In this document: positions 22,201 through 51,883 of the stretch, one piece after another
Position numbering within the stretch: position 1 is the first letter of the stretch
Layout of the letters: every line of letters begins with the position of its first letter
NCBI GenBank assembly: GCA_951394045.1
Contig: OX595985.1
Span: 4,526,001-4,590,000 of the forward strand
Length of the DNA stretch: 64,000 bases
Direction of reading: 5' to 3'
DNA from: Nitzschia sp. DOCU1
Lineage: Eukaryota > Bacillariophyta > Bacillariophyceae > Bacillariales > Bacillariaceae
Position numbers and translations under genes: made by a program
The notes under the pieces: generated by a model
Seen by the model: only the letters and a program-made list of their open reading frames with translations
Told to the model about the DNA's origin: nothing
Database searches by the model: none

Positions 22201-23079
22201 GGAAATCAATTCATGTGTTGTGCGCACTTATTTACGAAAGTTTCATTCTGGGGACCGATCAGATCCTATTCCTGGCGGGGCTATTGTCATTTGGAGTTAG
22301 ATCCTATTCCTGGCGGGGCTATTGTCATTTGGAGTTCGGGCAATTGGTCAATTAAAAACACTCTGCCGGTGAGCAATGTCCATCTAAAAGATCTGTGGGA
22401 ATTTTGCTCCGATGCGGATGCTGCTACGAGGACATACAAGGTAGATCCTTTTCTTGTTCTTTTTGGGGGGTGTGAATTAATGATGAGTGACAACTTTGAT
22501 GTCAAAAATGGAATCGCAAATGGGACCTGTGGCCGGTTTGTTCGAGCAGTCAAAAAACCTAATGCGATTGTCACTCCCATGAAGGTGCATGGTCGGTGGG
22601 TCAACACGATAGATGTCCATGACATTGACCACATTGAAATGAAGTATGACGAGATGCATGGGCCAGCATTCGTGGGAAAATTTAAAATTTTTCCAAGCAC
22701 AAAACCTGTGAAAGTACACTTTCCTTGCCCAAAGGAGATGGATTCTTCAGGACGCAGTCATATCAACATGGATTTGGCACACCTTCCCATTGTTTTGAAC
22801 TATGCAACGACAGTACACAAACTCCAAGGGAAATCTGTTGACAATCTGGTCATTGTGGAATGGTGTCGAACACGCAACTGGGCCTATGTTGTCCTGTCAA
22901 GAGTATGCACTTTAGCTGGGCTCTTTCTAACATCTGCCCTTCCTGACGATATTTCATTTACTCCGTCCCTAGAATATCTAACGATGATGGATCAATTTCG
23001 ATCTTCCATTTTGTCCACTGCCCTGTCTGAGGAACGCAGTGCATTCTTATCATCTGAATTGCTGCCAGCCAATAATTAA
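19290..23079 (+). pseudogene. Helitron-type Rep(partial)/PIF1 helicase gene with introns, frameshifted
   Basis: Coding pieces joined by splicing and frameshifts give a Helitron-like helicase protein. An acidic Lys/Glu-rich N-terminus is followed by a 45-nt intron at 19895-19939 (GTAAGT..ACAG), giving MKWTDEWFDLFG. FYVTGYQAK then resembles the two-Tyr motif of Helitron Rep; the HUH motif is absent. MNYLYRPADLQQW and LTLFKPFQEFEEI are typical of the Rep-helicase linker. The PIF1 helicase shows FVTGPGGAGK (Walker A, interrupted by an intron 21534-21595), LNVVDEVSF (Walker B), FLGDFCQLD and ATTVHKLQGKSVD. Frame breaks lie at the G run 20262-20271, the A run 20697-20703 and the 38-bp duplication 22261-22336. 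It would unwind DNA during rolling-circle transposition. The Rep part is 5' truncated. Confidence 0.82.
22261..22336 (+). repeat. 38-bp perfect tandem duplication inside the helicase gene
   Basis: Units 22261-22298 and 22299-22336 are identical. Because 38 is not a multiple of three, the duplication introduces a TAG and shifts the frame between RSDPIPGGAIVIWS and SGNWSIKN. Removing one unit restores a continuous helicase frame. Confidence 0.95.
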
Positions 23080-23573
23080 TGAAAACCATTTAATTTTAGA
23101 TTTTCCCGGTGGTGCAACTGCGTTGTCAAACAGTCCAATTCCATTGTGCGCATTGATTTTATATTTTCTGCCCGTGTGGTCTGCTTTTGTAGTGCGCATT
23201 GATTTATCAAACATCTTATGCCCCATTTTTCCATACCTGGTACTCCTTCAAGTAGCGTGGTAGGTAGAGGGGTAGGGAATGGTACTGGCGGAAGAGAAGG
23301 GAAGGTCAGACGAAAAGTGAGAAGGGGTACAGTAACAGGGGAGGGGGAGGAAAATAGGAAGGAGAAGGGGGGAATTTTTATACTTTGAATAGCATAAGAC
23401 GAACGGGAGAGAGGGACGACGTAGAGCTTGTTAGTACTAAAATAAATACTAGAAGGCCTAGTTACAGTTAATGTTAGAACTATGCGGAAAGGACACCGTT
23501 GAAACGATGCCGGACGACGACAGGTGTCCAGCCCAAAAGAAGGTCGTTGTTCGGGAAGAAAGTTTTATGCCAA
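23080..23573. other. Non-coding stretch with a purine-rich tract
   Basis: After the helicase stop there is AT-rich sequence, then a strongly purine-rich plus strand at about 23255-23420 (runs of GGGAAGG and AGGGGAGGGGG). No gene is recognised. The purine tract resembles a degenerate polypurine or G4-forming region but is not tied to an LTR. Confidence 0.4.
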
Positions 23574-25111: not shown

Positions 25112-25504
25112 GAGTTAAGGGGAACCGCCATGGAGGAGGAGGCGTCGTCAGCACCAACAAGGTCCCAACGAAACAGCTTTAGTTCGGCGGCACGCACAAG
25201 GCTGGGAGATGGCGTTGTATAGCGAAGTCCTCTTGTGTCAGAGGTAGAAAACTGAGGCGGCCTGTTGGGGTCGAAACTTTCCTGTTCATCGTTGCAATTC
25301 GGAGCATCATAGGATGCTAGGGCGGAGAGGAGCCAGGGAACTCTGTAATCGTAAACTGCCATTTTCGAATGGGAGAATTAGTGATGGAGTTTTGTGTCAC
25401 CGTAGTAGATGCGATGACTTTGGAGGAAAGGCACGATAGGGGTCGAAAATGGAAATCTTTAGAGTTTGGATGACCACATGATGATGTCTGATGGGGCCAC
25501 GGAC

Positions 25505-25658
25505 GGAGGGGCAAGCGACGAAGGAACATGCCCTGCACGCTCGTATCATGCATTCAGTCCGTCCGGCGCACGTGGTGTATTGGAGGGGCAAGCGACGACG
25601 GAACATGCCCTGCGCGCTCGTATCGTGCATTCAGTCCGTCCGGCGCACGTGGTGTATA
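25505..25658 (+). repeat. 77-bp tandem duplication
   Basis: Units 25505-25581 and 25582-25658 differ at only a few positions (for example ATCATG/ATCGTG). Each contains CAGTCCGTCCGGCGCACG. The sequence has no coding call. Confidence 0.9.
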
Positions 25659-25815
25659 TATTGGTAATAACAAAAGGCGTGAGGCAGAAGTGGCTGCTGC
25701 CAAGGAAAGTTTGTATCTGTAGAAAAGACATTTTTAAACAAATGAATTTCAAGGGAGGAAATCCAACAGATATTAACAAGCTTATAACTTTGAACATGGC
25801 TATTACAAGAAGCAA

Positions 25816-26202
25816 AGCTAGACAGCATCATTCAGTGCCCCATAGGCCAACGAAGCAGAAGTGCAAAGACGCCAAGCTGAAGAAGAAAGGTGGCCCTATG
25901 ATGCCAATCAAGTTGAAGTTTTGCAACATGACCTAGAAGAGAATGAGGAAGGAGTAGCTGGAATCCTGCAGGGTTTGAAGCACTCTAAAGAAGAAGAGGC
26001 ACTGGAAAGAGGAAAGTCATTTGAAAATGAAGAGTTGTTTCTGGATGGGTCACCAGAAGGAAAGAAGTCACCTACACATATTAAAGCAGAAGCAGACAGC
26101 CTTAAGGAGAAACAGGCAGAGGGTTGTGAAGATGTTTCTTGTGGCTGGCGCATAGAGCTAAGGTCCCATGTGACTCGGCTTTTTTGGGGGGGAAAGTACT
26201 AA
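25816..26202 (+). CDS. Acidic coiled-coil-like ORF, unknown, possibly an exon
   Basis: The plus-strand frame is highly charged (EAEVQRRQAEEERWPYD, DLEENEEGVAGI, SKEEEALERGKSFENEE) and would form a helix or coiled coil. A similar stretch just upstream (RREAEVAAAKESLYL, about 25670-25722) in another frame suggests a spliced gene with an unresolved intron around 25725-25810. No domain is recognised and the start is not defined. The ORF ends at a TAA at 26200. Confidence 0.3.
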
Positions 26203-26811
26203 GAGAGACGTGAAGATGCATGATTTGTGCAGTAGATGAGTTGACAGGCAGAAGTACTACATGATGGCCCAGGTTTTGTGCTGTAGGAAGACTCAAGAAC
26301 CACCCAGAAATAAATACATAAATTTTTTCTTCTTGTGCCATAGTCCCTGCTTGGAGGCCACAAATTGGGATCAATTTGACTATTGGAACGTGGCTGGAAT
26401 GCTGCCCTAGCCAGCCAAATGTTACTGTGGTAGATCTCATTCATTGATAATGAGAGCTAGAGGTATTAGTACTTTGAAAATGTTGTTAAAGGGGTCATAT
26501 TAATGTTCCTGGTTGACTGACAGGCAGTTCATGTTGACGCACCAAAACAAAAAAGAAGGCTTGCGTTAAAGCAGTACGCAGAAATGGGATGCGGCGCAAC
26601 AAAGAATGGTGGGGGTGAGGGCAGGACAGACGCCACGCGCAAATGGTGTCATTACATCAATTTTTAGCTGTGGAAAGCAATATGCATATTGGTGTACAAG
26701 GTATGCCTGATGAAGATGAAAAATTCTTTACTTATTTAGTGGTATGTAATTCGGCCATTGATAGGCAATATTTGGGTGTATGTTAAGAATCCAAGGGAAG
26801 TATTGTCATTT
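26203..26811. other. Mostly non-coding; partial dispersed repeat
   Basis: Positions about 26515-26565 resemble the dispersed repeat seen at 44391, 51580 and 63480 (GGCAGTTC..GACGCACCAAAA). A short minus-strand frame (26440-26203) has coding-like composition but no recognisable domain. Nothing else is identified. Confidence 0.35.
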
Positions 26812-27808
26812 CTAAACTTGAGCAGTATCCTCCTCATCATCTGTAGCATCATCAATAGCTTCATTTTGAGCAAGTGGAATTTGTCTGCTTGGTGGTCTTT
26901 GTCCACTGGAAGGTGGGGAGCGTCGAATTTGTTTTTCGCGAAACTCCTGAGAATTGATGAAGGAGCTGCCACGTGATGGATATAAGTATGACAATCGGAC
27001 AGTGACTTCTGTGTTCACCACTTTTTCTTTTTCGTCAGCAGCATCAGCTACCTCGCCCAGTTTGAACCAACCAACAATAGTCCAGCCCCCATTTGCATTA
27101 ATATACTGCACCATCTGCAATTTTGTTCCGATGAACCCTTTTGACTGCTAACATCTCTTCCTCAAACTCAAAAGTGGAAACATAATCATCAAAACTCTGA
27201 AAGAAGAGTTTTGTTGTTTGAAGAGACCTGAATCCAGTTGTAGTGTATGTATCCCCAAGCCCAAACCTGGCTGGCAAGGGGAATTCAACATCAAAGGAAT
27301 AGACAAATGCCTTGTCAGGCCCATTGTGAAGGCATGTACATTCCCCTTTGGACTTTTGGCGATCGCACTGGATACCACTGCAGGACACATCAAAGGGCAT
27401 GGTAGGCCGATGAAGAGCAATGCTTTGGTGTTTGAGAACAAAGTAATTGGTCTCTGCTGGTATAGTTGGCATACGCATTTTGCGAGATGTATCTGGGGTT
27501 GAGGCCTCTGTCTGGTTCAAGGGGATGAGGGTACGATCCTTAAAGTTGACAATAGGAAGGGTCTTTCCAATACTTTGGGAGATCAAGTTGGGTTCATATA
27601 AGTAGAAATCCCTGCCAATGTAGGAAAGTCCATGGAGATGCCGAAGAAGGTCACTGGTTTGCTGGACATTTTGTGTCATGATAGCGCAGCAATGTGGAGG
27701 GTTTGAAAGATCAGCACAGAGAAAGAAGCGATTGTAGGTTTTGGATGTCTGTGACATTTTCATTCGTTTGTTGGCTGCGTTTGTTGCATAGCTACTGACA
27801 ATGGCACT
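26812..27808 (-). pseudogene. Unidentified protein gene, 3' part (split by gypsy copy 1; one frameshift)
   Basis: The frame is open right up to the gypsy LTR at 27808 and joins in phase to 33472-33657 when the insertion and one GTGCC duplication are removed (GGSSRSA + IVSSYATNAANKR). Notable stretches are NRFFLCADLSNPPHC, LSYIGRDFYLYEPN and a Cys cluster CSGIQCDRQKSKGECTC that could bind zinc. A frameshift near 27115 leads into MVQYINANGGWTIVGWF and a charged tail ending at 26812. The full protein would be about 390 residues. Helitrons often carry single-strand-binding (RPA-like) proteins and an OB-fold is conceivable here, but I do not recognise one. Confidence 0.5.
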
Positions 27809-28425
<617 letters not shown>

Positions 28426-28585
28426 GGCACTTCGGGAACTTCCTCCCATGGTGCAAGCAAGAATTTTAAGGTGAAGAACTCTGTCCTCAAGAGCATTGGC
28501 ATGATCTTTGTTTTGCAAATAGACCAGTGGTACAACTTTAGTTTCAGGGCCAAGAAGAACCTCACCTGGTCCATCCTCTGGCACC
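28426..28585. repeat. 160-bp copy of external flanking DNA inside gypsy copy 1
   Basis: These 160 bp appear identical to 33472-33631, the host-side flank of the other LTR, and replace the end of pol. See findings. Confidence 0.93.
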
Positions 28586-28587
28586 GA

Positions 28588-31500
28588 TGATCTTCTGCTT
28601 GCGTAGCCTAATACGCGCCCAGTCTGCCACAAACTGTACTGGGAGAAACATATCCCTGCCGAATACTAACTGCGCTGGGGATGCCTGTAGGGTTGTGTGG
28701 TGCGTACTCCTAATCGCGAAGGCGGCGGCAGTGAGGAACTCATCCCATGGGTTCGTTTCGTCGAGTTCTCGTTCCTCTAATTCGAAGTTACGTAACGCGT
28801 TTCCTAATACTTGGTGTACACGCTCTATTACGCCGTTACTTTGGGGATTGTATTCTGTTCAGGGCTTCCTCTCCAGGCCATAGTTCTTACATAAGTCGTT
28901 GAAGTAGCGTTTGAATGTTGAACCATTATCTACGCCCACTTGTTGAGGTCTCGGGTACCTCGCCAACCAATAAGCATCGAATACCTTCTGGCACTCGTAG
29001 CTATCAGGTTTAGGCAGTGGTGCTATTTCAAACCAACCCGTGACTGGGTCGATCATGGTCATCGCTAAGAGCTCGCGTACTCCTTTCGGAGTTCGCACGG
29101 TGTATGGTCCTACCATGTCTACGTTCACGCGCTTCCATGGTATTGTCTCCGCTTCTTTCGGCGGCAGATGGCCATATTCTTTCCGTTGCTTCTTCGTCAA
29201 CTGACATATCTTGCACGTGCGACAGTGTTGCTCGACTTTCTCTCGCAATCCTCGCCAATCGAATACATGGCGTATTGTCGCTTCCATTCGTGTCATGCCT
29301 GGGTGTTGTAGCAAGTCGTGGTAGCTTTCGACTATCCTATCTTGTAGTGCAGCCGGTACTACTACTTTACCGTACTTAGCTATAACATCTACACCTTCTA
29401 GTTTGATCCTGGTGTATTTAGAGGGAGCTCGTCTGGCTTTTCGCATTAGATCGAGGTCTTTGTTTTGGTAGTAGTATGCTACTACCTTTGGACTCAGTGC
29501 GAATCCTTCTTCTGCCGCGATATCTTCCGCGGTCACGAGGTCGGCATAGGAGATCTCGTAGTCGTCGTCATCTCTTGGGTGATGCGACATACAATACGAC
29601 ATTTGTTTCCCAATGGGAACCTCCTCTGTCGACTCATCATCTGGGTCACTATTCGGGTGTCGCGACAGTGTGTCCGCGACTACATTGTCTTCGCCTTTGA
29701 CATGCACGAACGTAGCACCGTACTCTTCCAACAGAAGACGCCAGCGAACCACTCGGGAGCTCGGCATCTTGTTGTACAGAATATTTAGGTGGTCCGTGTG
29801 TACTACCAGCTTTTGACCAAGGAGAATATTCCTAAATTCCTTAAGCGTCTCGACTATACTTAGCAGCTCCTGTTCGCCTGTCGTATAATTCTTTTGGGCG
29901 GAGTTCAACTTCCGACTATAGAACGCCAATGGCTTTCCGTCTTGCATAATTACGGCGCCCAATTGATAATCGCTAGCATCCATATATATGTGGAATTCTT
30001 TGTTGAAGCCGGGGAAGTTCAACAGCGTCTCTCGCGCTACTGCTCGTTTGATCGATTCGAATGATTCATTGCATTCGGTAGTCCATTTCCACGGGACTGA
30101 CTTGGAACATAACGCCGTTAGCGGCGCCAGTATGTGTGATCGCTTCCGCCACATATCACGGTAGTAATTTACCATGCCTAAGAAACGTCTCAGTTGTCGC
30201 TTCGTTTGCGGCGGCTGCATCTTCAGTATCGCTTCCACTTTCTTAGGTTGGGGATGGATACCGTTACGGGAAATCTCGTAGCCTAGGTACTCAACGCGGT
30301 CGGCAGCAAATTTGCATTTGCGTACATTCGCGCGGAAACCAGCTTGTTCGAGTCGTGCGAGAACCTCTTTGAGCTTTGCGACATGGTCGCTAAATGTGCC
30401 TTTGCTCGTTATCAATATATCATCCATGTAGACTTGTACGTACTCCAGGTCACCAAGGAGACGCATCATGATACTTTGGAAAATATCAGGGGCATTGGAT
30501 ATACCCATCGGCAGCACCTGGTACTGATATAAGCCCCACGGCATTACAGTACCGAGGAGGCCTTGGCTGTACTTATCCATTGGAATGTGATAATAGCCCA
30601 TGCTGAGGTCAATAGCCGTTGCCCATTTAAAGCCCTGGAGTTTTTGCAATAACTCGTTGATCTTTGGCAGTGGGTGCGGCTTGCGCACAAGATATTCGTT
30701 GAGTTTCCGAAAATCTGTAAGTACGCGCACATCACCCGTTTTCTTCGGTTGAATGAACGTGCCGGCCGTCCATGTGGATAGGCTGACACGCTTCCAGATT
30801 CCAAGTTTTTCGAATCGTTCGATCTCTTTTCGCGTCATTTGCTCGTACGCATGAGGAATGCCGAATGGCTTAGCATGATACGGCTTTGCTCCTTCTTTTA
30901 ACTCTAGACGAATAGGATCTATTTTAAGTTTACCTAATCCGCCTCCGAATAGTGTGGGGTGCTGCTTCAGTTCAGCTAGTAGCTCGTCTCGCTGCTCCTT
31001 AGTCAAGTAGTCGAGTGAGTCAACAAACTCTTCCATCTCAACTTTGGAGTAGTCGGCGTCAAGGATCTTAGCTTGTCGTTCTTCCGCCGCTTGAATAACG
31101 GGGGCGTCTTGAGACATCTCGTACAGAAGCTGTAGAGCCTCTGGATCCGTCACAACACCACTTTCCTTCATCTCGACTTCGCTATCGCCCCATCGAATCG
31201 TTCGTTTCTCGAAATCGAGTACAAACTTCAATTCGGCTAATAGGTCAAGTCCTAGAATTAGGTCGTAAGGTGAGCTTTCGCGATCTGTGTGCTCGTCGAC
31301 GTGACATGGCCAGTGTATCTCTTTACTAGACGAGAGTTCGGGGATCCTGAAGCAAATCATTCCGACTTTGTCCGTCTTGAATTTGCCGCCCATTGTAGTC
31401 CAAGTAGTAACTCGTTTTCCAGTGGGAACGAGCTGGCTAAGCGTCACAACGCTCTTAAGAACGATGGAACGACTAGTACCCGTATCTAGTAGAGTTCTAA

Positions 31501-32212
31501 GGACATAGGATTCACCTCTAGGATTTACCGCTTCGACGACTATTTCTGTAGTTAGCCGCCTGGCAATTTTCCTATTTGGCTCTATTCCAGGGCGTGACGT
31601 TCGAATAGCAAAACTATGTTCATTTTCGCTATTGTAGTCGATGTAGTCGCTCTCGGATTCACTACTTTCGTTACTGCTACTGTCCGAACGATTATTCAGC
31701 TGGAAACTGACCTGCCTTTTGGCTTTGGTCTTCCCTTTTTCTTTCTTACTTTGTTTCTTAGCGAGGGCTTTCACGACAGTCTCCATCTGGAGTGCCGAGA
31801 ACATGTTCTCACGGGCTCCACGCGGACGCTTGTTTGGGCGATCCTTGGCATTGCCAGGAAGGCTCCAACACTTGTCATCGGGGGCCGGATGAAACTTGCC
31901 GCAGTGCTCGCAGGGCTTCTTTCTGTCCCCCTTTTCGGCTTTCTTGCGGTCTTTGCCTCTCTTTCTTTTCTTACCGCCGTCCTTGCTTTCGCTTTCGGAT
32001 CGTTCGGCGTTTTTCTTTTCTTTGTTCTTTTTATCTGCTCTGACCGCATCGTCGAGGACGTGCTTGGCCTCGAGCTTTTCCAAGTATTTGTAGTACTCGT
32101 CGAGCGTCATTGAGAAGGGATCGATGTTCGAGGTGAGCAGGTCTCGCTGCCACTCGATCCTTTTCGCTCGGTCGAGGATCTCCACGAGTTCGTCATCGTC
32201 GAAACATCTCAC
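28588..32212 (-). pseudogene. Gypsy copy 1 Pol (protease-RT-RNase H-integrase), truncated
   Basis: After the frameshift near 32205 the frame runs 1117 residues. It covers the Gag C-terminus with zinc knuckle CEHCGKFHPAPDDKC, protease LLDTGTSRS, RT (VYMDDILI), RNase H (YMDASDYQ, where copy 2 has YTDAS) and integrase HHCC and two catalytic Asp. A Ser codon TCA has become TGA at about 28859, cutting the integrase before its catalytic Glu (NGVIERVH). The frame stays recognisable to 28586 (DASNKREN end missing), where the 160-bp external segment replaces the C-terminus. It is not functional. Confidence 0.93.
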
Positions 32213-32828
32213 CGCTCGTTTTGTCTTCGGGGATCGGGAAGTAAGGTAGCATGTTGTTTTGATGGAGTAGTTCGGCCTTGAAGTTGGCCAACGACATCTC
32301 CATCATGAACACGTGATAGCGTAGATAGTTTCGCTGGCGGCGGTAGGCGTGCTCGGTGCCGAAGTAGTACTGCCCCATTCGTTGCATCGCCTCGTTAAAG
32401 GTGTCGTCCGGGGTCTCTTCTTCTTCTTCGTCCGACTCGTCAATGTTGTGACGTAGGTTGGCAACGATGTCTGCGAACCTTTGCCTTGCCTCTCCAGCGA
32501 ACAACGCCTTCGCATACTTGATTTTCTTCTCCCCATCGTCCAAGGGGACGTCCCGAATCAACTCGTCCATCTGCATCCGCCACTTGACCCATCGTTCGGC
32601 GTCGCCTTGTTCGAAGATAAAGCAACGCGTTTCGAACTCGTCCGAATCCTCATCGGTTGGGTCTAACTTGATCTTGACCTTCTTGGACTTCTCATCATCT
32701 TGGAGAATCTCTTCGTCCTTGGGTTTCTCGCGACGGAAGGGGATCAACGGAGGGTTGACGTGAGCGGCTTGAGTCAGAAGCAACGCAACTTTCTTCGCGT
32801 ACTCGTGGTTAGAGTAGGAGGTCTTCAT
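32193..32828 (-). pseudogene. Gypsy copy 1 Gag, N-terminal part (frameshifted)
   Basis: Residues 1-207 match the Gag of copy 2 (MKTSYSNHEYAKK to PIPEDKTS). The frame then breaks because of an extra base in the AAA at about 32212-32214 (plus strand GAAAC versus GAAC) and ends EMFRR. It starts 25 bp inside the 5' LTR. It is the capsid/nucleocapsid part of the polyprotein. Confidence 0.92.
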
Positions 32829-32840
32829 CCTTCAAACGGG

Positions 32841-32852
32841 AGTTTTAAAACT
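32841..32852. other. 12-bp palindrome at the primer-binding position of gypsy copy 1
   Basis: AGTTTTAAAACT, one base from the 5' LTR edge; the same in copy 2 at 50275-50286. No TGG-initial tRNA complement is visible. Confidence 0.7.
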
Positions 32853-32853
32853 G

Positions 32854-33471
<618 letters not shown>

Positions 33472-33657
33472 GGCACTTCGGGAACTTCCTCCCATGGTGC
33501 AAGCAAGAATTTTAAGGTGAAGAACTCTGTCCTCAAGAGCATTGGCATGATCTTTGTTTTGCAAATAGACCAGTGGTACAACTTTAGTTTCAGGGCCAAG
33601 AAGAACCTCACCTGGTCCATCCTCTGGCACCAAAGACAAATCAACATAAGATTCCAT
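33472..33657 (-). pseudogene. Unidentified protein gene, 5' part (split by gypsy copy 1)
   Basis: The ATG at 33657 begins MESYVDLSLVPEDGPGEV, continues through VVPLVYLQNKDHANALEDRV and is open to the LTR. It joins 27808 in phase; see the 3' part. The first 160 bp next to the LTR also occur inside the gypsy element. The product is unidentified, although the VPLVYLQN..VLHLKILA pattern of beta strands would fit a small barrel fold. Confidence 0.5.
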
Positions 33658-34092
33658 GATGAATGTTGAGCAATAGGAATTATGAGGAAATGTGTGGTGC
33701 TATGTAAAATTGAGAGCAACACTGCAGAAAAGAAACATTTTTTCATAATTTTAGTGTATTTTATGATGCAGATTTCAAAATATGTGCTTCCCGGTGTGCA
33801 GTGCATTCACTCTGCATCTGACGCATGATGCATTTGGCGTGGAGCATGCTAACTAACAGAAATTGTATTTCCAATGGCAAAGAGTGTAGGTAGATCATTT
33901 CCTTTCCCAAGTATTCAGACAGCAGGTACGAAACTTGTTTAAGTCATTTGAATGGTGCTACATAGTGCTTACTTGCACAGCCTACATTTGGCAGTGCCAT
34001 ATAGCTTAAAAAGACAACGCAGAAACAAGTACGAAAGAAATAGTAAAAGAATACATTAACTTGTGTTGAGAAAGTACCACATTGTGAATTAT
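33658..34092. other. AT-rich intergenic stretch
   Basis: No coding sequence is supported. It lies between the stop of the gene at 34093 and the start of the gene at 33657 and probably holds a terminator and a promoter. No motif is named. Confidence 0.35.
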
Positions 34093-35142
34093 CTAATAAT
34101 AACCAAGTTCAGCTGCTGCAATCTCAGGATATGGCTTCGAAAATAGTCCATCGGCAAGCTTACGATTGGCAGAGTAAAAGGCAGAATGGAGATGCCGTTT
34201 TTGGATGATAAGTTTTGTAATTCTCATAACATCCTCATCCAAAAGATAGGAGTCAAGAGATGGAGTCATGGATGGAGTTTGATCAAAATCCATGGGGACA
34301 GCAGTAAAAGAATCAGAGACGCTGGCTTGATTGATTCCCTTGGTAGAATTTTGGTACGGATTGGCTTTGCGCCAATTGTTTAGGAAGTTAGAAATAGACT
34401 CAGCAATTCGCTTGCATTCATTCGTGGTAAATCCCATTGGCCTGAAGCAAACAATGTAACACTTTTTGTACTGAGTTTTTCCCTGTCCTGTTTTGAAGAC
34501 TGCCATATTCTGGTCCTTGGAAAGCCTACGGGGAGCAATGGCAACAACCGGCACATGTTTGAGAAAAGCTTTTTGTTCTTCATTTTTGTCTTCATTTGTG
34601 GTGATGAACTTGAGAAGAGGAAAGACAAAAGCTTCATCATTCCCTTGGTTGATCTCAAATAAGGCAAGCAAATTGGAGCAAGTTCTTGTCACCATCTTGG
34701 TTCAATATTGGTGCGAAACATTTGTGACCATTGCAAGAATGGAACAGCCCTGTTATCATCTGTTGATGTTTTAAATCTCTTATCACGATCGGGTGATACT
34801 ACAACAGCATTGATTTCAGAATCTTCCTCCATGGTCTCCTCAGATTGGACTTGTGGAAGTGAAGGAGCCAAGTTTTTATCCACATTATGATTGTCCTGCA
34901 TACTTTCTATATTGACACGCTTCATGATTGTTTTTATGAGTGCTTTACCCAAAGGGTCCATGAAAAGTTGTGGAAGAGATCCTATAAAAAATAGAAAATA
35001 TTATTGATTTTGTAGAAAAACATAAAGATAGTAGTGCGACCCTACCTGCTTGGAGGAAGTTTAGGTCCCTTTTTTCGAGTTCCCTTAGCAGAAAACAAAG
35101 ATTTGAAGAACCCCAGGGTTTTATGGTGAGTGGTTTTGGCAA
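34093..35142 (-). pseudogene. Unidentified spliced gene of the cluster (one frameshift)
   Basis: Exon 1 (about 35142-35046, RELEKRDLNFLQA) is joined across a 64-nt GT-AG intron (34982-35045; GTAGGG donor, TTTTTATAG acceptor) to exon 2 (SLPQLFMDPLGKALIKT). The exon 2 frame ends at FRTNIEPRW near 34690. An overlapping frame starts at once (MVTRTCSNLLALFE) and runs to 34093 with good coding composition, so a one-base shift or a genuine ATGGTGA overlap occurs there. The protein is about 320 residues, soluble, Lys/Asn-rich in the second half. No domain is recognised. No ATG precedes exon 1, so another upstream exon may exist. Confidence 0.45.
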
Positions 35143-35396: not shown

Positions 35397-36154
35397 TTAA
35401 TGTTCCTTTGGTTCCGCATGACAAAATTTTAGAGGAGGCTTTTTGCTGATCTTGGAGAAGTTGTGGCCAGTTAAGTCGTGTCGAACTCTTTTTACCTTAG
35501 GCTGTTGAGGAGTATTAAATACTGTAGTGTCAATGGTATCATCAAGACATTCCTTTTTGCGTGCTTGCGCATTCCCAGAACTGACGTCTTTTTCATGTTG
35601 GTACTCATGAAATTTTCTGTGCTCTTTGTATGATGGAAACAAAGTTGGTTCATAAGGATGTTGGTGAAACGTTATGGTAATTGCTGCTGGCAGGACTCCA
35701 CTGAAGTTTTCTTGTTGTTTGGATGGAAGTTGGGTCCCACAGGTTTTCTCTTGAAGAAAAAGATGAGGAGGATGACAGTTGTTGCCACAATGATGGGTCA
35801 GAATGTCATCAGGGCAATGGTGCATCATGAGATCATAAAGGGACATTTTTGTTGCTCCACAATCAAGACAGCCAAAACATGGTGCAGTTTTTCCTATGTT
35901 GGGGTGAAACTTCATAATACAGGAAAGAAAAATTGAGTTGAATGATCATGAGAAAATGATCAGAAAAGACTTACCTCACGTTCTTTGGTTTGCACAAAGA
36001 TAGTAGTTGGTTCAGCGTTTACAGGGAGGTCAACTGATTCGGCCCAGCTTCTTGGATCAACAACACGAATGCCATGATAAAGTAGTCCCAAGTTCGCATC
36101 TTTTGCTTTTGCTCTGGTGAGAGATTCCTGAAGTTGTGCGGGATTAAGAATCAT
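35397..36154 (-). CDS. Zinc-binding Cys/His protein with one intron, unknown function
   Basis: The ATG at 36154 (MILNPAQLQESLTRAKAKD) opens exon 1, which ends FVQTKERE at 35975. A 65-nt intron (35910-35974) starts GTAAGT and ends ATGAAG. Exon 2 continues in phase (FHPNIGKTAPCFGCLDCG). The spliced protein is about 230 residues. Cys/His residues cluster at CFGCLDCG, MMHHCPDD and LTHHCGNNCHPP, a pattern consistent with one or two zinc sites but not one I can name. The C-terminus is basic (VKRVRHDLTGHNFSKISKK), as in nucleic-acid-binding proteins. The start is divergent from the histone H3 gene, 166 bp away. It is probably cargo or an accessory gene of the Helitron-like element. Confidence 0.6.
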
Positions 36155-36320
36155 GATGGAAATGCAATATAATGAACATATTTTTCTTTTTGTATTCTGT
36201 ATGGGACACTTTCCTTTCATAGCTTCTGTGAAAAACAAAAATCTCATGACAAAATTCATGGTTTCTACTAACAGAACAAAAATATGGTGAATGGGCACAC
36301 AAACTGAAACTTTGCGAATC
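36155..36320. promoter_or_regulatory. Short divergent intergenic region (zinc-protein gene / histone H3 gene)
   Basis: These 166 bp separate the two start codons. The region is AT-rich. It is probably a shared bidirectional promoter; no TATA or initiator element is convincing. Confidence 0.35.
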
Positions 36321-36731
36321 ATGGCACGAACTAAACAGGCAAGGCCTCAAAAACGAGTACAAAGGACACCAAATTGCAAGCAGCAACAAGGAAATAAAGA
36401 AATCAGGGAGGGTGTTGCAATAAGTGAGAACGTTAATAGAAAACGGTATAGGCCAGGAACAGTTGCTCTGCGGGAAATTCGAGACTATTTGAAGCCTACT
36501 ACTTTAGAAATTGAAAAGCGTCACTTCCAAAAATTAGTCCGACAAATTGTTGAAGAAGATCTCAAGAAAAAACTCCATTTCCAAGCCTCTGCTATTTTAG
36601 CGCTGCAAACTGCGTCTGAAGCCCACCTTATTGGGTTGTTTGAAGAAGCAAATTTATGTGCTCTGCACAGCAAGCGTGTAACAATCATGGCAAAAGATAT
36701 ACTACTAGCAAGGCGCATTCGTGGAGAATGA
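36321..36731 (+). CDS. Divergent histone H3 variant
   Basis: A complete intronless ORF of 136 codons, the usual H3 length. It begins MARTKQ and contains [15 protein letters not shown] (alpha-N), [19 protein letters not shown] (alpha-1/loop 1), [18 protein letters not shown] (alpha-2) and [19 protein letters not shown] (loop 2/alpha-3), ending RGE. It should pair with H4 in a nucleosome. The Lys4 context is kept, but neither ARKS motif (K9, K27) exists and the KKPHR segment is replaced by VNRKR. The loop 1 region is one residue longer than in canonical H3, a feature of centromeric H3. It is on the opposite strand to its neighbours, 85 bp from the Rep gene stop. Whether it acts in the element's own chromatin, at centromeres or not at all is unknown. 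Confidence 0.93.
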
Positions 36732-36815: not shown

Positions 36816-39800
36816 TCAATTCTCCTGTGCAATTACTCCACAACGTATAACTCTGAGATTCTGTCTCCTTGAAGAATTCCATTCATCAGCCATTTGGTAA
36901 CCTAAATGAAGTAGTCCCTCAGCATCCATGAGTTGCCGATGCCTCCTGGATCGTGCCTTTACTTTCCATATGCTCTCAAAGGTTTGTCGATCCCTTTTTT
37001 TGTAAAGCCAATTACCATACCATATACTGCCCATGGTTGAAGGAATCGTTGATTTGTAATAGTGGATCCATCCCCACTGTTATGCTGCATCAAGCGGCGA
37101 CGTATGTTTTTTGTCTCACCAATGTACATTACACTGGTATCCCTTGTAGAAACCAATTGGTAGACTATTCCATGATTTCCAGGTGGCAGTTGGGCATCAC
37201 AAGGCTGGAAAACACATGGGTTCTGCACAATTGCAACATTGTTGCTTGCAGTTGTAAGCTGACGCAAAAGAAGGCGAATATAGGGCAAGAACCGGTTTGT
37301 CATTTTTAGCACCTGTAAAAAATGTTCTGCGACTTCAGTTGCATTGCCAACAATGTAAATATCCCGAGCCCTACGAGTGCGACTCAGAAGAACCACAACC
37401 TGTGCAGCCTCCCATAATGTATAGTCATACGTGTCCTCTCCATTGGTAACCTGGGTAACAATTGATGATAAAGTACAACCCATGCTCCCATGGATGGTTG
37501 CTGCCACTCTGGGCTTGAGACCGTATTGTGTTCTTCGTGCTTGAATGCCTCGAAAAACTGTTTCATTGGGTGAAGTAGTGTAGGAAACACTGACTTTCTT
37601 CCAACCACGTTCACTTAATGCATTTTCATTGAAAAAATCCATTGGGGGGAAATCCTTGCATCCAGGAGGTGCAGCCCAAACTTTAATAGGTTCTTTGTTT
37701 TGAACTTTGCCTTCATCCAATTCCAACAAAATAGCCAACTGTCCCTGTTGAAAATGTTTATCCTTATGGCAGAATTCGAATCTGGCATTTCGATAAAGAA
37801 CAAGCTGCTGTTTCCGCCGTTGCTGCCTTGATAGTTTTCTGACAACAGGAGGAGTTGCAGGATGCCAATTTCCCCCTGTTGTTGATTCCTCATCACTTGC
37901 TTCAGAAATCACAAGAGGAGTTCCACTTCGACGAAGACGCCTCAGCATGAGTTTCTCTACCTGCAGGCAGGGTTCACGTCTTCCAAAAATGAAAACTGCT
38001 TCTTCTGGAATTCGTGAATCAGAAAGGCTGGATACAAAGGTACAATTATTTGAAATGAGCTCAATGAATCGTTCAATGTCTCTGTCAGTCCATGTTGTAT
38101 TTCTGGTCAAAGCACATATCTCTCTGAGTGCAGCGCAATTGGCAGCTCGCACGGACTCAGTGAGCTCATAAAACTTGAATTCCACAATCATGTTGATAGA
38201 CATCATGACTGGTGTTCCCTGCCAAGGCATGAGTTGCAAGATATCTTCTGAAGCTATTACCAGCAAGCCGCCCATGAAGAGAGCACTGTGCTTCACATAT
38301 CTGGCAATCATGTCTAGAGTTGCAAATAACTCAGCAGACAGTAATCCAAGCTCATCAACATATAAAAAGTCCAATGATTGCCACAAAAATAGCAACTCTG
38401 GGTTTCGGTATAAGGCAGCAAGCGCATTTTCCGCCATTCTTCCTGGAGTTAATGCTGTACTTGATGCTTTTAGACAACCAAAGCGATGAATGTGCTTTCC
38501 TCCAAGTTGCTTTGCCCGGTCAGCTACAACACTGGTTGGTAGACCATTGAGCCCTTTACACATCGCATAAAGGCAAGCGATTTCACAAACTGTGGTTTTT
38601 CCAGTTCCCGGAGCCCCCACCACTACCAAGTTTTTGTGATTTTTTGTTGGGTTAATGTAAGCATCAATCTCAGCTTTCATTCCAAGTAATGTCCTGGTCT
38701 GCTCAATATGTGACACAGAATTTTGGTCAAATGAACGAGGTGGAGGGAAAAAAACAGATGTGTCAATTGCAGAAGGGTACTGTCTTGCAAATTGAACCAT
38801 CTCTTTTTCGGGCAAAACAGTGGCATGCCCGCAAGCAGTAAGATCGTTCAAAAGTACATCAATGAACAGTGCACGCTGGTTCATTAGGAATGTCTGAGTA
38901 GATGCGTTTGTCTCATCCACCATGTGACTGTGTAAAACAGAAGGGAGAGGTGGGGTATCAAGGATGGTTTTGCAAAGCATGTCCTTGAAGGTAGTATATG
39001 CCAAACAAAGATTACGATCAAACTGAAATGTTGATCCAGGCTGGATTGCAAGAAATTTGCGTACGTATCGACCAGTCAAGTTCAAAATGGAGGCTTCTGC
39101 ATGTGTTGGATCAAAAAGTCCTGCATGAATAAATGCAGAGCGTATGTTGCCACTTAGCATAAGTTCATATTCTGTCTCAAAACTCCCTATCGAAAGAAGA
39201 AGATGAATCAGAAAGCGATTTCTGTTTTTTGGGAACACAGGAGTGTGCCAGACCACAGGTATATTGTTCTTTGATTTCAATGAGAGAAATCTTTTCTTTA
39301 TTTCTTGAAAATCTTGTTGGGCACGTGGAAGTGCCGGAAGACGGATAGGCACAGTCTTCTTGATAAAAATATTACATAGACGTTGGATTTTCAAAAGAAG
39401 CGCAAGCATTTCTTGTTTGTATATGTTGCCGCCAAAATGTATTACATCTGAATTCTGGGCATATGCCAGGATTTCATCAACTGCTCCTTGTCGTAACCTG
39501 AGTTTGCAATTAAAACCATCCAACCATTCACTGTGTTCGATGGAAACTTTTACGTTCTGCTGGACATAGGCAAGAGAAGCCTGAGGATCAAACAATGCAG
39601 CAACAGTTTCTCGTTCAAACCATCGTAAATAGTTACGTTGTTCCCGTACAAATCGTAATTCAGGAGGACGCATGCTGAAATAAGTGGTTGCATCAGTTGA
39701 TAATGGAGCACGTAGCTCATCCTGAATAGTGACAATCTGGCTGTCACTGAACAATCTTGTTGCAGGGAAACCTGCAATTGACATTCTTGCTGTTTGCCCT

Positions 39801-41830
39801 GTTACTGCCAATACGGCTTGCATATCGTGTGGGCGCTGTCCAGATCCCTTCACTCGATTGAATAGAGCAGCACGATATTCCCGAGGACAAGTAGGCATAT
39901 GTATAAATTGCACCGTGCTAGTCACCAGTGGAATACCCTGAATAACTGTCAAACACTCCATTTGAGTCAAAGCACGGCCATGGCCATTCCGCACATTGCT
40001 CTTTGTTTTGTGTGCTAACCTCTTCCAAGAAGTAATTTTTGTGTTGTGTAAAGCAGTGTACGTCCCATTTAGGTGATCTGCTCCTAACCCACCTTTTTCA
40101 GAGTGAACACCCACTGGAGATGGAGGGGTCAACTTAATGATTGCAACTTCATCCAATTCAGCAACATATTTAGCAAGATATGCTGCAACACTGTAGCCAG
40201 TAGTAAATTGTAGATTTTGTGCACTGGGGAAACACATAAACAACTTGCCATTTGTTGGCGAGAATGGCGTTTCTGTTTTTGAACATCTGGGTACATGGCG
40301 TTCAGCCTGCAACAACTTCTCTGTAATTACATTTCCATCCATCATTCCCAAAAGCCGCAAAATATCGCAACATTCTTTTGAATGATGAACTGGCACAGGC
40401 TGAATGGAATGATTCTGGGGCTGGTCTGTAAGTCGGAAATTGTTTGGCACTTTGCAAACAAAATGCGTCTCTCCCTTATCATCCATTTTGGGAACCTGAC
40501 ATCGGTCATGACATCGGTGGGCAAGGTATGTTTCAGCATCCAGTAATATATCTTGAAGTTGTGATGTGGAGGAAATAAAACCATCATTCTTCAAAGCATT
40601 GATCTCGCTGTATTGGATTAGATCTGCCAAGCAACCACGTATTTTATGCAGTACTGTATTCAAACCTGCTGGAGTGGATATATCAACTTTGGTTCGCAAA
40701 ATTGCGTGGATGTGACTTGGATTGCCTTGCTTTTCCTGGAACTCATGGCGCCACCATGCCCATTCAATCTCATGCAAAGGAGCCTCTATTGAATAGACAA
40801 TATATTTCATCCATAATAGACTCACTTCATTCCAACTCAATACAAATGGGGCGGCAGACTCACGTAGCAAAAATCTTGCTTCTTCCAAGGTGACACCATA
40901 TTTTTTGCTGATTTCTTCTGCTGCCAAGTTTGAGGTAGTCCATTCTCTTAGGACTCGGAGTCCACGGCAGGTTTTTTGATTGCAAGACTGTGTAAAAAAG
41001 TAGTGTGGAGGGTGTTCGCCAAGCAGGGCAGAAAGCTTGTGAACATTGTTGGTATTTTCTGAAGAATCTCCATACAATTCAGCATTTTCATTCTTCGCAA
41101 AAGAAATCCCATCCTGTCCCTGTTTGTCTGCAAATCCGTGATGCAGAATCATTCTGCTGTCATTTCCTCTAAGACCCAAATTGACCAGCACATCAAAAGT
41201 TAAAAACTGGTAACGTGGATCAGTGCTGCATAGATGACATGGATCCATAATGCGATTTTTTCCATGCTGTCGCATGGAGGCAACACCGTACTGAGCCAAA
41301 GTCATTTCATCTGTCCACAAAGAAGTGGGTAAAGCACCCAGAACTGATCCATCATCACTGTTGAAATAAAATATGTCAGGGAAGAGCAGAGCTTCAGCAT
41401 AGACAAGAGGAACAGTTCGACCTTTTGACCTTGATACAATTCTTTCATAGAAATTTGAACTTCTGCGCCGCATTCGAAGTTTAGTGTTCTTTCGAATAAG
41501 CAAATGTCCTTGCATATTCAAAAGAACGTGAAGAGGTGATGATACAACATCAGGCGGACCTTGTAGATTTATCCCTAGGGGTTGCCTTGCAGTGCTAGTT
41601 GTAGGAATCATTGCAATCTGATTTTCCTGTTCTTCAATACTTTCCTCAAGTTCATCATCACCATGAAAAACATCATCCTGATAATAGTCATCTTCGCTCA
41701 TTACACTGCTTTCAGTGCTAAAATCATCAAAAAGATCTGTAGGGAGTTCATGAGCTGCAATTGGCCCTAAGTTTGCTGCTGGCAATGGTGGGCTATTGCG
41801 AGATCCAATTATAGCATCAGTATTGCGCAT
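36816..41830 (-). CDS. Helitron-like Rep - PIF1 helicase - GIY-YIG nuclease protein (frameshift near C-terminus)
   Basis: The first ATG is at 41830 (MRNTDAIIG); the frame runs about 1620 residues to 36959. Residue numbers count from the in-frame codon 41851. The rolling-circle initiator has RHEFQEKQGNPSHIHAIL (HUH, His380/His382) and YSVAAYLAKYV (candidate Tyr553, 558, 562). The helicase has VVVGAPGTGKTT (Walker A, 1079-1086), FLYVDELG (Walker B, 1162-1169) and TIHGSMGCTL (1453-1462). A GIY-YIG nuclease ends the protein: HGIVYQL (1560-1566), VMYIGETKNIRRRL (1574-1587) and QH (1589-1590). A one-base shift near 36990 moves the end of that domain (TFESIWKVKARSRR) into the frame ending at 36816. 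It would nick, unwind and copy the element. A GIY-YIG tail is not part of the standard Helitron protein. Confidence 0.87.
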
Positions 41831-41840
41831 GACCTCTTGC

Positions 41841-44072
41841 TCATTTCCCACAATACAATCTTCCTCGCTTAAAAAAAAGATGTGATGGATGATCTTGTTC
41901 CTGTATTAAACCCTCCCAATCTTCTTGACAAATTCCGATACAACACCCTCTTTCAGGGCAAACAAAAGAAGGACGAGTGTTGCAAGATCTTACCCCTGTG
42001 TTGTCTGCAGAATCATATTGTTTCAGAACGCATTTGCACCTATCTTGAGCTTGGTGCAGGTGTGCATTTGTTACAAGTGCTACCAGATGGGCTTCACAAT
42101 AACACGTATTCTGTCCACCAAGACATTTCAAATATCGTCGACGAAGTTCTTCATGCCGCTGTGTTTGATGACGACAATATATTGCAACCCGTAGTTTATC
42201 AAAAGTATCTGGCAATCCAGTGCTTCGTGCAAATTGGGCAGATCGTTTGTGTTGGTACCACCATAGTTGTCCCGAATGTCGTGAAAAAATTGCAGCGTCA
42301 CAATTATACTGTTCTGTTTGCTCACCAAAAACTAAACACCGCAACTCCCAGACTGCACTGTCAAGAACAACACCAGTGGACCCGAATACAATCACAACTT
42401 TGGTGCTGTCACTATGCACCCCATTCCAGGTTCCTTGCACAATGGCAATACCATTGACAGTGGAGAAAATGCGCTGAAGCTCACTAAAAGAAAAATCATT
42501 GGTCATTCCCAGTTTTTCCAAAGCTCTTTCAGGGCGAGATTCAGTATAAAAAATCTTCTTTTGCCGATGACCTTTTCCTCTCCCTGGGAGTTTCAGGCTC
42601 TCCGAAGCCAAAACAAGCCACCAGCCAAACCACTCACGATTGCTTGTCACATTACTTGCCAAAATAGACCAAACCTCATCTACAGTCATCATGATACCCA
42701 AAAGAAAAAATCCAACAAATGTTTTAGTTGGATCAGAAATCATAGCAAAGCGTTCTCCAAATCCATCATATGGGTGCACGTGGAGACGACGGCGTGGCCA
42801 AGGAGGGTCGAAAATGACTTCTTCGCATTCTCCACTTTCTGCATCAAATATTAAAAGACTCTGGGATTTTGCCTCATATGCTTGCTCTTGAAGTTCAATG
42901 GCATCCAAAAGAGAAATATAAGTGGAGCCTTTCAGCTCTTCCCTGGAAGCAAGATTTTCAAAAAGGACCCTTGCAGCTGCCAACTTGCGTACAACAATGT
43001 TCTCTGGTAAATATGCTGAATCTTCTGGATTTTGCCCCAAAGTTTGAACATATTCTCGAATATCTGTTCTTCCTTGTATAGAAAGGGAATCTCGCAGCAG
43101 AGCCAAAGCATTTGTATGGCGCAAATCTCCCTTGTTCATTATGTAAGATGAGTCCATACCATCATATCCACCCTGTAGTACTCCAGTTTGGTATGTGTCT
43201 GAAAAATAATGAAGCTTGGTAGGACGCAATGTTCGACTCCTGCAAACCGCTGGTGAAAGTTGGTTGGAATTTCCTGTAAATAAATGCCCTGTCACTGTTA
43301 TTGGTGGGTAGATATACCTCTGTCGACATCGTGCATTATGATCCCTGCAAGCAAGAATCTCAGCACCATTGGTTCCAATGCAAATGGTGGGTGTGCAAAC
43401 AAAATTTTCATTTTCAAGCAGAGTAACGCTGCTAGGATAATCAGGCCGTATACAATCAGTCCATTGAGTGGTATTTCCTGATCCTGTGGCATAGCAATTG
43501 AATGTCCAATTGCTATAGAAATACAAGAAATCTTCCAGTGGTAGTTTGTTGCATGTGTGCAGAAACTCGCTGCAACCCCAAGGACAACGGATTTCAGGAT
43601 AAGCCAAATGCTTGTCCATTTCAAGAGAAAGTTCCATCCATCTTAGCCTGGTTATCGCCATATGAAATACATTGGCTTCCTCTGTTTTATCACAAAATAG
43701 TGGTGGTGGTGTATGCATTGTAATGGAAACACCATCTTGCAATGTTTGTACTGATGCAAGCCACCATATTCTCCACTTAATTGGGATCAGCGCCCAACGA
43801 TCAGCCAATGATGGTTCTTGAACAAAAGGGAACTGACTTCTTTGACATAAGAAAGACCATACCATGGATGGCCAATAATCCTTTGCAACAGGCTTGCCAT
43901 TGCCAGACAAAAAGTATGATTCACACTGAGCACACAAGCTAATAATCTGTGGAAGCCCATTGTCTGGTGGGAGGAAGCAATACTTTTTGCCTCGCTTCCG
44001 TCGAAACACTTCAGATGAGTGCACAAAAAGAACCACCTCCCGGCGGTAGCAATTGCAGCATACATCATTCAT
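41841..44072 (-). CDS. Cys-rich 743-residue protein upstream of Rep, unknown
   Basis: The ORF is intact, ATG at 44072. The N-terminus has paired Cys (MNDVCCNCYR and LCAQCESYF), likely one zinc site. The last 90 residues are a dense Cys/His cluster (CLGGQNTCYCEAHL, DRCKCVLKQ, CPERGCCIGICQEDW) that suggests two or more zinc sites. The middle is globular and unrecognised. It overlaps the next ORF by 11 bp in the +1 frame at a run of eight T. It could therefore be the N-terminal zinc-finger part of one giant Rep protein separated by a homopolymer error or by programmed shifting, or an independent protein. Helitron Rep proteins often have N-terminal zinc fingers, which favours the first view. Confidence is high for the gene, low for function. 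Confidence 0.7.
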   Translation of the reverse strand: MNDVCCNCYRREVVLFVHSSEVFRRKRGKKYCFLPPDNGLPQIISLCAQCESYFLSGNGKPVAKDYWPSMVWSFLCQRSQFPFVQEPSLADRWALIPIKWRIWWLASVQTLQDGVSITMHTPPPLFCDKTEEANVFHMAITRLRWMELSLEMDKHLAYPEIRCPWGCSEFLHTCNKLPLEDFLYFYSNWTFNCYATGSGNTTQWTDCIRPDYPSSVTLLENENFVCTPTICIGTNGAEILACRDHNARCRQRYIYPPITVTGHLFTGNSNQLSPAVCRSRTLRPTKLHYFSDTYQTGVLQGGYDGMDSSYIMNKGDLRHTNALALLRDSLSIQGRTDIREYVQTLGQNPEDSAYLPENIVVRKLAAARVLFENLASREELKGSTYISLLDAIELQEQAYEAKSQSLLIFDAESGECEEVIFDPPWPRRRLHVHPYDGFGERFAMISDPTKTFVGFFLLGIMMTVDEVWSILASNVTSNREWFGWWLVLASESLKLPGRGKGHRQKKIFYTESRPERALEKLGMTNDFSFSELQRIFSTVNGIAIVQGTWNGVHSDSTKVVIVFGSTGVVLDSAVWELRCLVFGEQTEQYNCDAAIFSRHSGQLWWYQHKRSAQFARSTGLPDTFDKLRVAIYCRHQTQRHEELRRRYLKCLGGQNTCYCEAHLVALVTNAHLHQAQDRCKCVLKQYDSADNTGVRSCNTRPSFVCPERGCCIGICQEDWEGLIQEQDHPSHLFFKRGRLYCGK

Positions 44073-45151: not shown

Positions 45152-45156
45152 TTTAT
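45152..45156 (+). repeat. Target-site duplication CTTTA, left (gypsy copy 2)
   Basis: Exact match to 50906-50910. Confidence 0.93.
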
Positions 45157-50262
<5,106 letters not shown>

Positions 50263-50274
50263 CCTTCAAACGGG

Positions 50275-50286
50275 AGTTTTAAAACT
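50275..50286. other. 12-bp palindrome at the primer-binding position of gypsy copy 2
   Basis: AGTTTTAAAACT one base from the LTR; identical in copy 1 (32841-32852). Confidence 0.75.
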
Positions 50287-50287
50287 G

Positions 50288-51330
<1,043 letters not shown>

Positions 51331-51883
51331 ACAATGAATGGGACTCACTTGATTTGTCGTATGTGGCATGACTCCTTTGATTGATTCAAATGACTAACTG
51401 GATCACTGCAATTCGCCTTACTACTGGGAAGTTTTCCTCTAGAAAGTAGATTGTCTATAACTTGCCAGGAACCTGTCCAAATTCAACCCTTTCTTCAAAG
51501 TCCATCCAATGCTTCACTGGCCAATATGTAGGCAAGTTTCTTGCAACTCGCCCTGGATTGACATTTGAGATGACTGCCAGGCAGTTCTGATCAAAGGGTT
51601 TAAAACAGGAGACACACAACAGAAGCAGTTCTGGTTGACGTGCCAAAAAAGGAGACATGCATGGAAACAAGCATGCCTGCAACATGAGTTAGGAACTTCC
51701 TTCCAACAAAGAGTGGACTGGCAAGCAGTTCTCACCAATGCGGCAACAGAAGAGGCATGCCTTGAAGCAAGCACCCCTGCAACCTGGTGCGAGGAGCTTG
51801 CATCCAACAAAGAGTCGTAGCAACCTATCTTCTTGCAATCCATCTTGGATCAGCATATCAGATGATTGGCGGGCATTTCATTC
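51331..51883. repeat. Dispersed 45-90 bp repeat, left flank of the copia element
   Basis: At least two units of the shape GCATGCCTGCAAC..GAGGAACTTGCATCCAACAAAGAG (about 51668-51713 and 51765-51814) and a GTTGACGTGCCAAAAAAGG box (51635). The same family continues on the other side of the copia element at 63316 and occurs at 44391. Confidence 0.75.

Follow-up and report, generated by a model that had tools for sequence, protein, structure and literature searches.

On the forward strand of a 64,000-nucleotide stretch of the Nitzschia sp. DOCU1 genome, referred to here as the window, lies a gene for a histone H3 variant whose translation (MARTKQ...RRIRGE) runs for 136 amino acids to a stop codon. 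The protein matches the Pfam Histone family (PF00125) with an E-value of 1.8e-34, its top PDB match is an H3 (131.7 bits, residues 1-136), and the H3 histone fold is matched across its full core, which places it among the core H3 histones. A second in-frame ATG is present 10 codons upstream, at 36291; MARTKQ was taken as the start because the other copies of the gene share it and not the 10-codon lead. In an alignment with canonical H3, the window protein has ARKS at neither the K9 nor the K27 position, lacks KKPHR, and carries one additional residue between helix 1 and the FQ of helix 2; by script count, loop 1 is 11 residues long in this protein and in a CENH3-like exon of the host, versus 10 in canonical H3. 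The missing ARKS and KKPHR and the added residue, as well as the complete frame with its ARTKQ start, had been pointed out in the first-pass annotation of this DNA, and translation, family and PDB matches, and alignment bear them out. A search of the protein database with the whole protein gave 7973 matches, among the best 120 of which none exceeded 69% identity, while residues 60-100 yielded zero candidates with three shared 5-residue words, and a search of IMG/VR with this H3 returned no relatives. The AF2 model of the protein has helices at residues 48-56, 66-80, 89-115 and 124-134 with a pLDDT of 61, a value of low confidence, and the 50 PDB matches shown for it, which are chains of nucleosomes or H3 complexes at rmsd 9-16, were given no weight.

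Table 1. Features of the window element, and H3 loci of the genome with no Rep match in range
Feature	Location	Strand	Evidence
Element-borne H3 variant of 136 aa with Lys4 but without ARKS; loop 1 longer by one residue	36321..36731	+	Translation, PF00125, PDB, alignment
166 bp separating the H3 (+) and orf3 (-) start codons	36155..36320	.	Coordinates, orf3 homology
Rep/helicase ORF, 1630 aa: HIH, YLAKY, PIF1 helicase, C-terminal GIY-YIG	36959..41851	-	Pfam, alignment
Rep-side ORF, 743 aa	41841..44072	-	ORF list, homology
orf3 start, exon-like piece	35960..36154	-	55% identity to L025, query residues 57-118
orf3 piece 2	35400..35915	-	96.5% to L009 over 172 aa; L025 only 27 aa (59%)
orf3 piece 3	34093..34695	-	59% identity to C8 element over 199 aa
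orf3 piece 4, severed by Gypsy 1	33485..33699	-	Homology
Gypsy retroelement 1, nested in Helitron orf3, GGCAC flanks	27808..33471	-	Boundaries by eye
orf3 3' pieces past Gypsy 1	26812..27807	-	Longest: 77% identity to C8 element, 182 aa
Gypsy retroelement 2, Rep side, CTTTA flanks	45156..50905	-	Boundaries by eye
Truncated locus nearly identical to part of the window element	C1:3069104		98.1% over 1600 bp
Three canonical H3s, H4 adjoining each	C10:777537, 798932, 1811512		
Host H3 variant	C10:1819850		
H3 exon	C3:2670773		
CENH3-like exon	C6:3437069		
Lone H3 fragment with stop	C7:2808639		

The first-pass annotation had placed this H3 inside a Helitron-like gene cluster, and the gene is indeed Helitron cargo, with copies beside Rep genes elsewhere in the genome. 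Its neighbors in the window are a Rep/helicase frame, a Rep-side frame of 743 aa, which in several other copies is part of a single open frame some 2400 aa long, and an accessory gene, orf3, whose pieces extend from 36154 down to about 26812 and which is kept in a related element on contig C8 and partly at other loci of the same Rep lineage (Table 1). Homology between orf3 and the C8 element begins, as read by eye, at codon 57 of the ORF at 35960-36322, that is at the ATG at 36154, and we take the pieces to be exons of a single gene; orf3 has no Pfam family, its only matches being sub-threshold ones to DUF3825 and Imm_superinfect. The short stretch that separates the H3 and orf3 start codons might possibly act as a two-way promoter. 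The element is disturbed by two Gypsy retroelements, situated in or beside it. An element end near 26974, where DNA homology stops, was rejected since the sequence there is coding, and a scan of positions 25400-26815 for a 3' Helitron end (CTRR and hairpin) produced one weak candidate. The window also holds a sub-threshold PIF1 piece at 21584-23252, probably the remnant of a second Helitron, with relatives on contigs C10, C13 and C16 located 3-4 kb from PF14214 matches; an array of 33- and 8-bp spaced repeats at 50866-51347, beside the second Gypsy element, with similar DNA on several contigs; and, at 58276-63033, a polyprotein of the Copia type in which a sub-threshold chromodomain lies between the integrase and the reverse transcriptase.

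Two lineages of Helitron-type Rep were followed: group A, the GIY-YIG-type lineage to which the window element belongs, and group B, the lineage defined by Helitron_like_N (PF14214). Residues H380, H382, Y558 and Y562 of the group A Rep are invariant in all 14 aligned members (motifs identified by eye), and we take this HIH and the two tyrosines four apart, read without a Rep profile, to be the HUH-like and tyrosine motifs of Helitron Reps. PIF1 and GIY-YIG each match 14 of the 14 members at E<=1, with a best PIF1 value of 8.3e-11, and in the PDB the group A profile matches PIF1 helicases, SLX1 (through its GIY-YIG part) and Helraiser 7lcc (E=4.6e-5, through its helicase part). Helitron_like_N is not among the 10 Pfam families of the 1630-aa window protein, is absent from the listed 25 of 39 Pfam families for the 14 group A members, and does not match the 743-aa window ORF at E<=0.001; judged by coordinates, 0 of the 26 PF14214 matches of the genome fall at group A loci. 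In group B, PF14214 is over the cut-off in 26/26 matches, six of which lie beside an H3, and the same search matched none of 14 control genomes. Relatives of the group A Rep/helicase in the protein database number 32, from jgi, ena and lgn sources, and its profile found no relatives in IMG/VR. Among the literature matches listed, no title or opening of an abstract describes a Helitron with a GIY-YIG fusion.

The first-pass annotation had proposed a search for further copies of this H3 next to Rep genes, and such copies were found on nine contigs (C1, C5, C6, C7, C8, C9, C10, C12 and C17) and in both Rep lineages. Across the 52-Mb genome the H3 search found 27 matches, equal to 26 loci, as the matches at C1:3801710 and C1:3807644 were counted once, being a single H3 gene split by a Gypsy copy; this copy, inside the element-borne H3 at C1:3801710-3807817, is 99.6% identical to the second Gypsy element of the window. 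Rep loci were located with the 743-aa ORF (31 matches merged into 21 group A loci) and with PF14214 (26 matches, 25 group B loci); these counts, like that of the H3 matches, are lower bounds. A Helitron Rep match lies no more than 11 kb from 18 of the 26 H3 loci, while the 11-kb neighborhoods of all 46 Rep loci make up about 2.1% of the genome. The binomial probability of this proximity is 6e-23, computed with 17 of 26 loci, one fewer than the final 18. The 11-kb limit was chosen after the data had been seen, with the 18 H3s situated at most 8.5 kb from a Rep and the others more than 86 kb away. Seen from the Rep side, an H3 is present at 12 of 21 group A and six of 25 group B loci; the remaining nine A and 19 B loci, among them those whose Reps are most closely related to that of the window element, have no nearby H3 match, and H3 is therefore dispensable for transposition. 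The copies do not lie at a single-copy host locus devoid of Rep genes, and an ordinary host H3 or CENH3 with an adjoining transposon was rejected on account of the copies on multiple contigs in two Rep lineages. A separate CENH3-like exon of the host is found on contig C6.

Other histones behave differently. Searching the genome with the Histone family yielded 38 matches, namely the 26 of H3 (two of which are the one split gene) and 12 taken together as other histone-fold matches, and an H4 search gave six matches in four genes. By coordinates, 0/12 of these other PF00125 matches and 0/4 H4 genes are near a Rep, so that the cargo is H3 and not histones generally, and a general capture of histones was rejected on the same counts. 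Table 1 lists the eight H3 loci that have no Rep in range. The host H3 variant among them (C10:1819850-1820197), 8 kb from a canonical H3/H4 pair, has an altered tail, ARKVTGGKAPRKEFATKAARKS, and an altered loop 1 composition. On the same contig, C10:774838-802040 is an inverted duplicate histone cluster with H3, H4 and other histone-fold matches and its two H3s 21 kb apart, which is either a real palindrome or an assembly effect. The fragment at C7:2808639-2808926, which combines a long loop 1 with a stop, is probably a relic.

The H3 is common to copies on different contigs together with the element DNA that surrounds it. In the six group B copies (on C1, C5, C6, C7, C10 and C12) shared DNA extends from the Rep side across the H3 and beyond it, with 77-99% identity in pairwise pieces; the H3 frame is 387 bp long in all six and free of gaps in the six pairs measured among five copies. 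Past the group B H3, and facing it, is a conserved ORF of 230-243 aa with no known family (L038 3101-3832 and L035 466-1158). The group A copies on C12 and C17 share 99.8% identity across 3.1 kb, which could reflect either a recent jump or a duplicate in the assembly; for the C5 copy and C1:4979163, with 99.5% identity, these two explanations apply as well. The place of the H3 within the element differs among copies. Downstream of the helicase it is found on the opposite strand in the window and on the same strand at C1:5308562, C12, C17 and C1:86077; upstream of the Rep it is divergent in six group A copies (C8, C9, C1:3563553, C1:3801710, C1:2875559 and C10:2414607) and in all six of group B, and on the same strand at C1:3553817. 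The C8 relative of the window element accordingly has its H3, which contains a stop, upstream of the Rep, and no H3 between helicase and orf3.

Tails were tabulated for 15 copies (10 of group A, five of group B) and read by eye in four more (C1:3069104, C1:3801710, C17:59928 and C1:4979163). Lys4 is kept in 15/15 of the former and, with the latter, in 19/19, and Arg2 in all copies except C9:82579. ARKS occurs in 0/15 tabulated tails, and these proteins were therefore classed as H3 variants; it is absent from the four copies read by eye as well. Each of the five group B tails has a single lysine, Lys4, and eight or nine arginines, versus eight lysines in the tail of host canonical H3 and two to eight in the ten group A tails. 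By count, a lysine outside ARKS occupies position 9 in six of ten tabulated group A tails (C8, C1:5308562, C12, C1:86077, C1:2875559 and C10:2414607) and position 27 in two of ten (C1:3563553 and C9), so that silencing methylation at these positions would still be possible. Of the first-pass idea of an H3 that keeps Lys4 and is immune to silencing marks, the first half holds, Lys4 being kept and ARKS absent in 19 of 19 copies. The second half, immunity, is inferred and has its best case in group B, six group A tails having a lysine at position 9. Loop 1 can be read in 17 of the 19 copies and is longer in all of these, by two residues in C10:2414607 and by one in the others; in C12:310765 alignment gives it the same length as in C1:86077, the script count there being a matching artefact.

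Signs of selection differ between the two groups. Counting the 18 Rep-linked loci and the truncated C1:3069104, there are 19 element-borne copies, 15 of which have an open H3 frame. In group B, dN/dS is 0.17-0.24 (NG86) in nine of nine between-subgroup pairs and 0.22-0.33 with YN00, and dS<=dN was obtained in 0/300 codon bootstraps for each of four such pairs; C12 versus C10 gave 0.31 (4/300 bootstraps), and C7 versus C12 gave 1.46 at a dS of 0.022. In group A, C1:3553817, which has a stop, gave 0.42 (YN00 0.56, 0/300 bootstraps) against C1:3563553 and 0.41 (YN00 0.50, 0/300) against C9, while C1:3563553 versus C9 gave 0.64 (YN00 0.89) and C12:310765 versus C1:86077 gave 0.53, with dS<=dN in 56/297 bootstraps. 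For the window copy, dN/dS was 0.15 against C8 (184/300 bootstraps usable) and 0.20 against C1:5308562 (244/300 usable), synonymous sites being saturated in both comparisons. On this pattern, the H3 is clearly under purifying selection in group B and likely so in group A, while for the window copy selection is beyond measurement.

Based on the association of H3 with Rep loci, its sharing with element DNA, and selection in group B, the best explanation in our opinion, held at slightly less than even confidence, is that two Helitron-type lineages carry an H3 variant as a working gene that would keep element DNA active, or hard to silence. H3 requires H4 as its partner, and the element H3 would presumably pair with H4 supplied by the host, no H4 genes having been found near the elements. 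The resulting nucleosomes would be deposited on element DNA, perhaps on the newly made rolling-circle product, where Lys4 could be offered for activating methylation and read as active, and where the lack of an ARKS site for silencing of the K9/K27 type would leave the element transcribable. In a wider form of this proposal, to which we give distinctly less credence, Helitrons of at least two lineages might run a histone-variant system of their own, in which an H3 with Lys4 only (group B) or without ARKS (group A) is passed between lineages and chromatinizes element DNA so that it cannot be silenced. If true, a self-encoded nucleosome would serve as an anti-silencing device, and would be a new class of such device: enzymes and regulators are known means by which transposons counter silencing, whereas a histone of their own would target the substrate of silencing instead. 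The Lys4-only tail of group B would also amount to an experiment of nature on the H3 tail residues that a parasite requires, and makes it testable whether Lys4 alone is enough for an active state and whether loss of ARKS means escape from heterochromatin.

The main rival is that the H3 acts genome-wide, as a decoy or poison that enters host nucleosomes, or occupies H3 chaperones or methyltransferases, and thus weakens silencing everywhere. A tail that has diverged around a conserved core would suit such a role, and a viral precedent is available in the bracovirus H4 reported to alter host gene expression from within nucleosomes (PMC5423620). Against it, trap-type Lys-to-Met changes at the ARKS positions are absent from the alignment, in which the tails align poorly there, and on balance we consider such a genome-wide action unlikely. 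Next in order, and a little less likely still, is a role in targeting or replication, in which the H3 would package or recruit the rolling-circle intermediate, or steer insertion, and would have no part in silencing. The link of H3 to Rep in two lineages agrees with this, as do the short divergent gaps that separate H3 from another element gene (166 bp to orf3 in the window, 235 bp between the H3 start and the divergent Rep-side ORF in the C10 copy of group B); however, the many related elements without a nearby H3 match indicate that it is not essential for replication.

Alternatively, the gene might be a captured CENH3 by which the element is targeted to centromeres or gains an advantage in transmission, and the first-pass annotation had in fact raised capture of a CENH3-like gene, with the longer loop 1 as a hallmark. 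The longer loop itself stands in all 17 of the 19 copies where it is readable, and one extra residue is also what the CENH3-like exon of the host shows. This exon (C6:3437069-3437338, LRRLPFARLVREI) is likely a host CENH3 exon, as it groups with the CENH3s of human, yeast and Arabidopsis at 81/90. In our tree of 23 sequences and 97 columns, which includes 14 element H3s and the C7 fragment, that CENH3 group forms without the element H3s, at a support that is not decisive, and the capture is not borne out by the best tree; a joint clade of element H3s and CENH3s is, on the other hand, not rejected (AU p=0.371). Most copies also start in a canonical-like manner, with MARTKQ or MARIKP, and the window core has 69% identity to host canonical H3 versus 58% to the CENH3-like exon. 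Capture of a CENH3 is thus neither supported nor excluded by these data, and as an explanation of the element H3s we regard it as improbable. As for their common origin, the 14 element H3s and the C7 fragment fall on one side of a branch at 60/89, which is not decisive, while group A by itself is not kept apart in the tree (constraining it to stay together gives AU p=0.189). The window core shows 67-70% identity with host H3s and 57-71% with other element H3s, and since these ranges overlap, identity alone gives no common origin. The H3 closest to that of the window (71%) is found at C1:3563553, where the Rep has 36% identity with the window Rep, while the C8 element has a Rep 56% and an H3 64% identical to those of the window; over 95 columns, this mismatch is only a hint, compatible with exchange of H3 between elements or with separate captures.

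Passive capture, in which pieces of histone genes are swept up by Helitrons and decay, has in its favor the four of 19 element-borne H3s broken by a stop, a truncation or a Gypsy insertion, the weak constraint in young group A pairs, and the decayed histone fragments of Culex Helentrons (PMC4067079), but with 15 of 19 frames open and the C5 and C10 H3 frames 85% identical versus 67-78% in the adjoining 100-column blocks (79-94% in the Rep-side ORF), it is hardly probable, being rejected for group B by dN/dS, if not firmly for group A.

Elements and histones with which these H3s can be compared each share some of their features. The element H3s resemble CENH3/CENP-A in having an H3 fold with a longer loop 1, but differ from them in a canonical-like N-terminus and in standing apart from CENH3s in the best tree, where support is weak. 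The elements themselves resemble Helitrons of the Helraiser type in an HUH-like motif, two tyrosines four apart and a PIF1-family helicase, whereas group A has a C-terminal GIY-YIG and no Helitron_like_N among the families listed. Helentron-Cq-32A of Culex is likewise a rolling-circle element with histone sequence, in that case fragments of H4 and H15 genes with a stop, a frameshift and indels (PMC4067079), while the H3 described here is whole, mostly open, under selection in group B and present in two Rep lineages. TET/JBP genes are carried by fungal DNA transposons that include Helitrons (PMC12730594), and a SET domain by a proto-Helentron of Phytophthora (PMC4067079); in both cases, as here, cargo found in several transposon lineages may act on the silencing layer of the host, but that cargo consists of modifying enzymes, whereas here it would be the substrate itself, a histone. 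The bracovirus histone H4, CpBV-H4, is reported to join nucleosomes and alter host gene expression (PMC5423620), and it is similar in that a DNA element of viral kind encodes a core histone with an important tail; it is, however, an H4 and viral, unlike the transposon-borne H3 of these elements. The first-pass annotation knew of no transposon with an H3 as cargo, and the literature matches listed agree with it, as they contain no intact transposon-borne H3. Chromatin cargo of Helitrons is already known; what is new, among those matches, is an intact H3 as the cargo.
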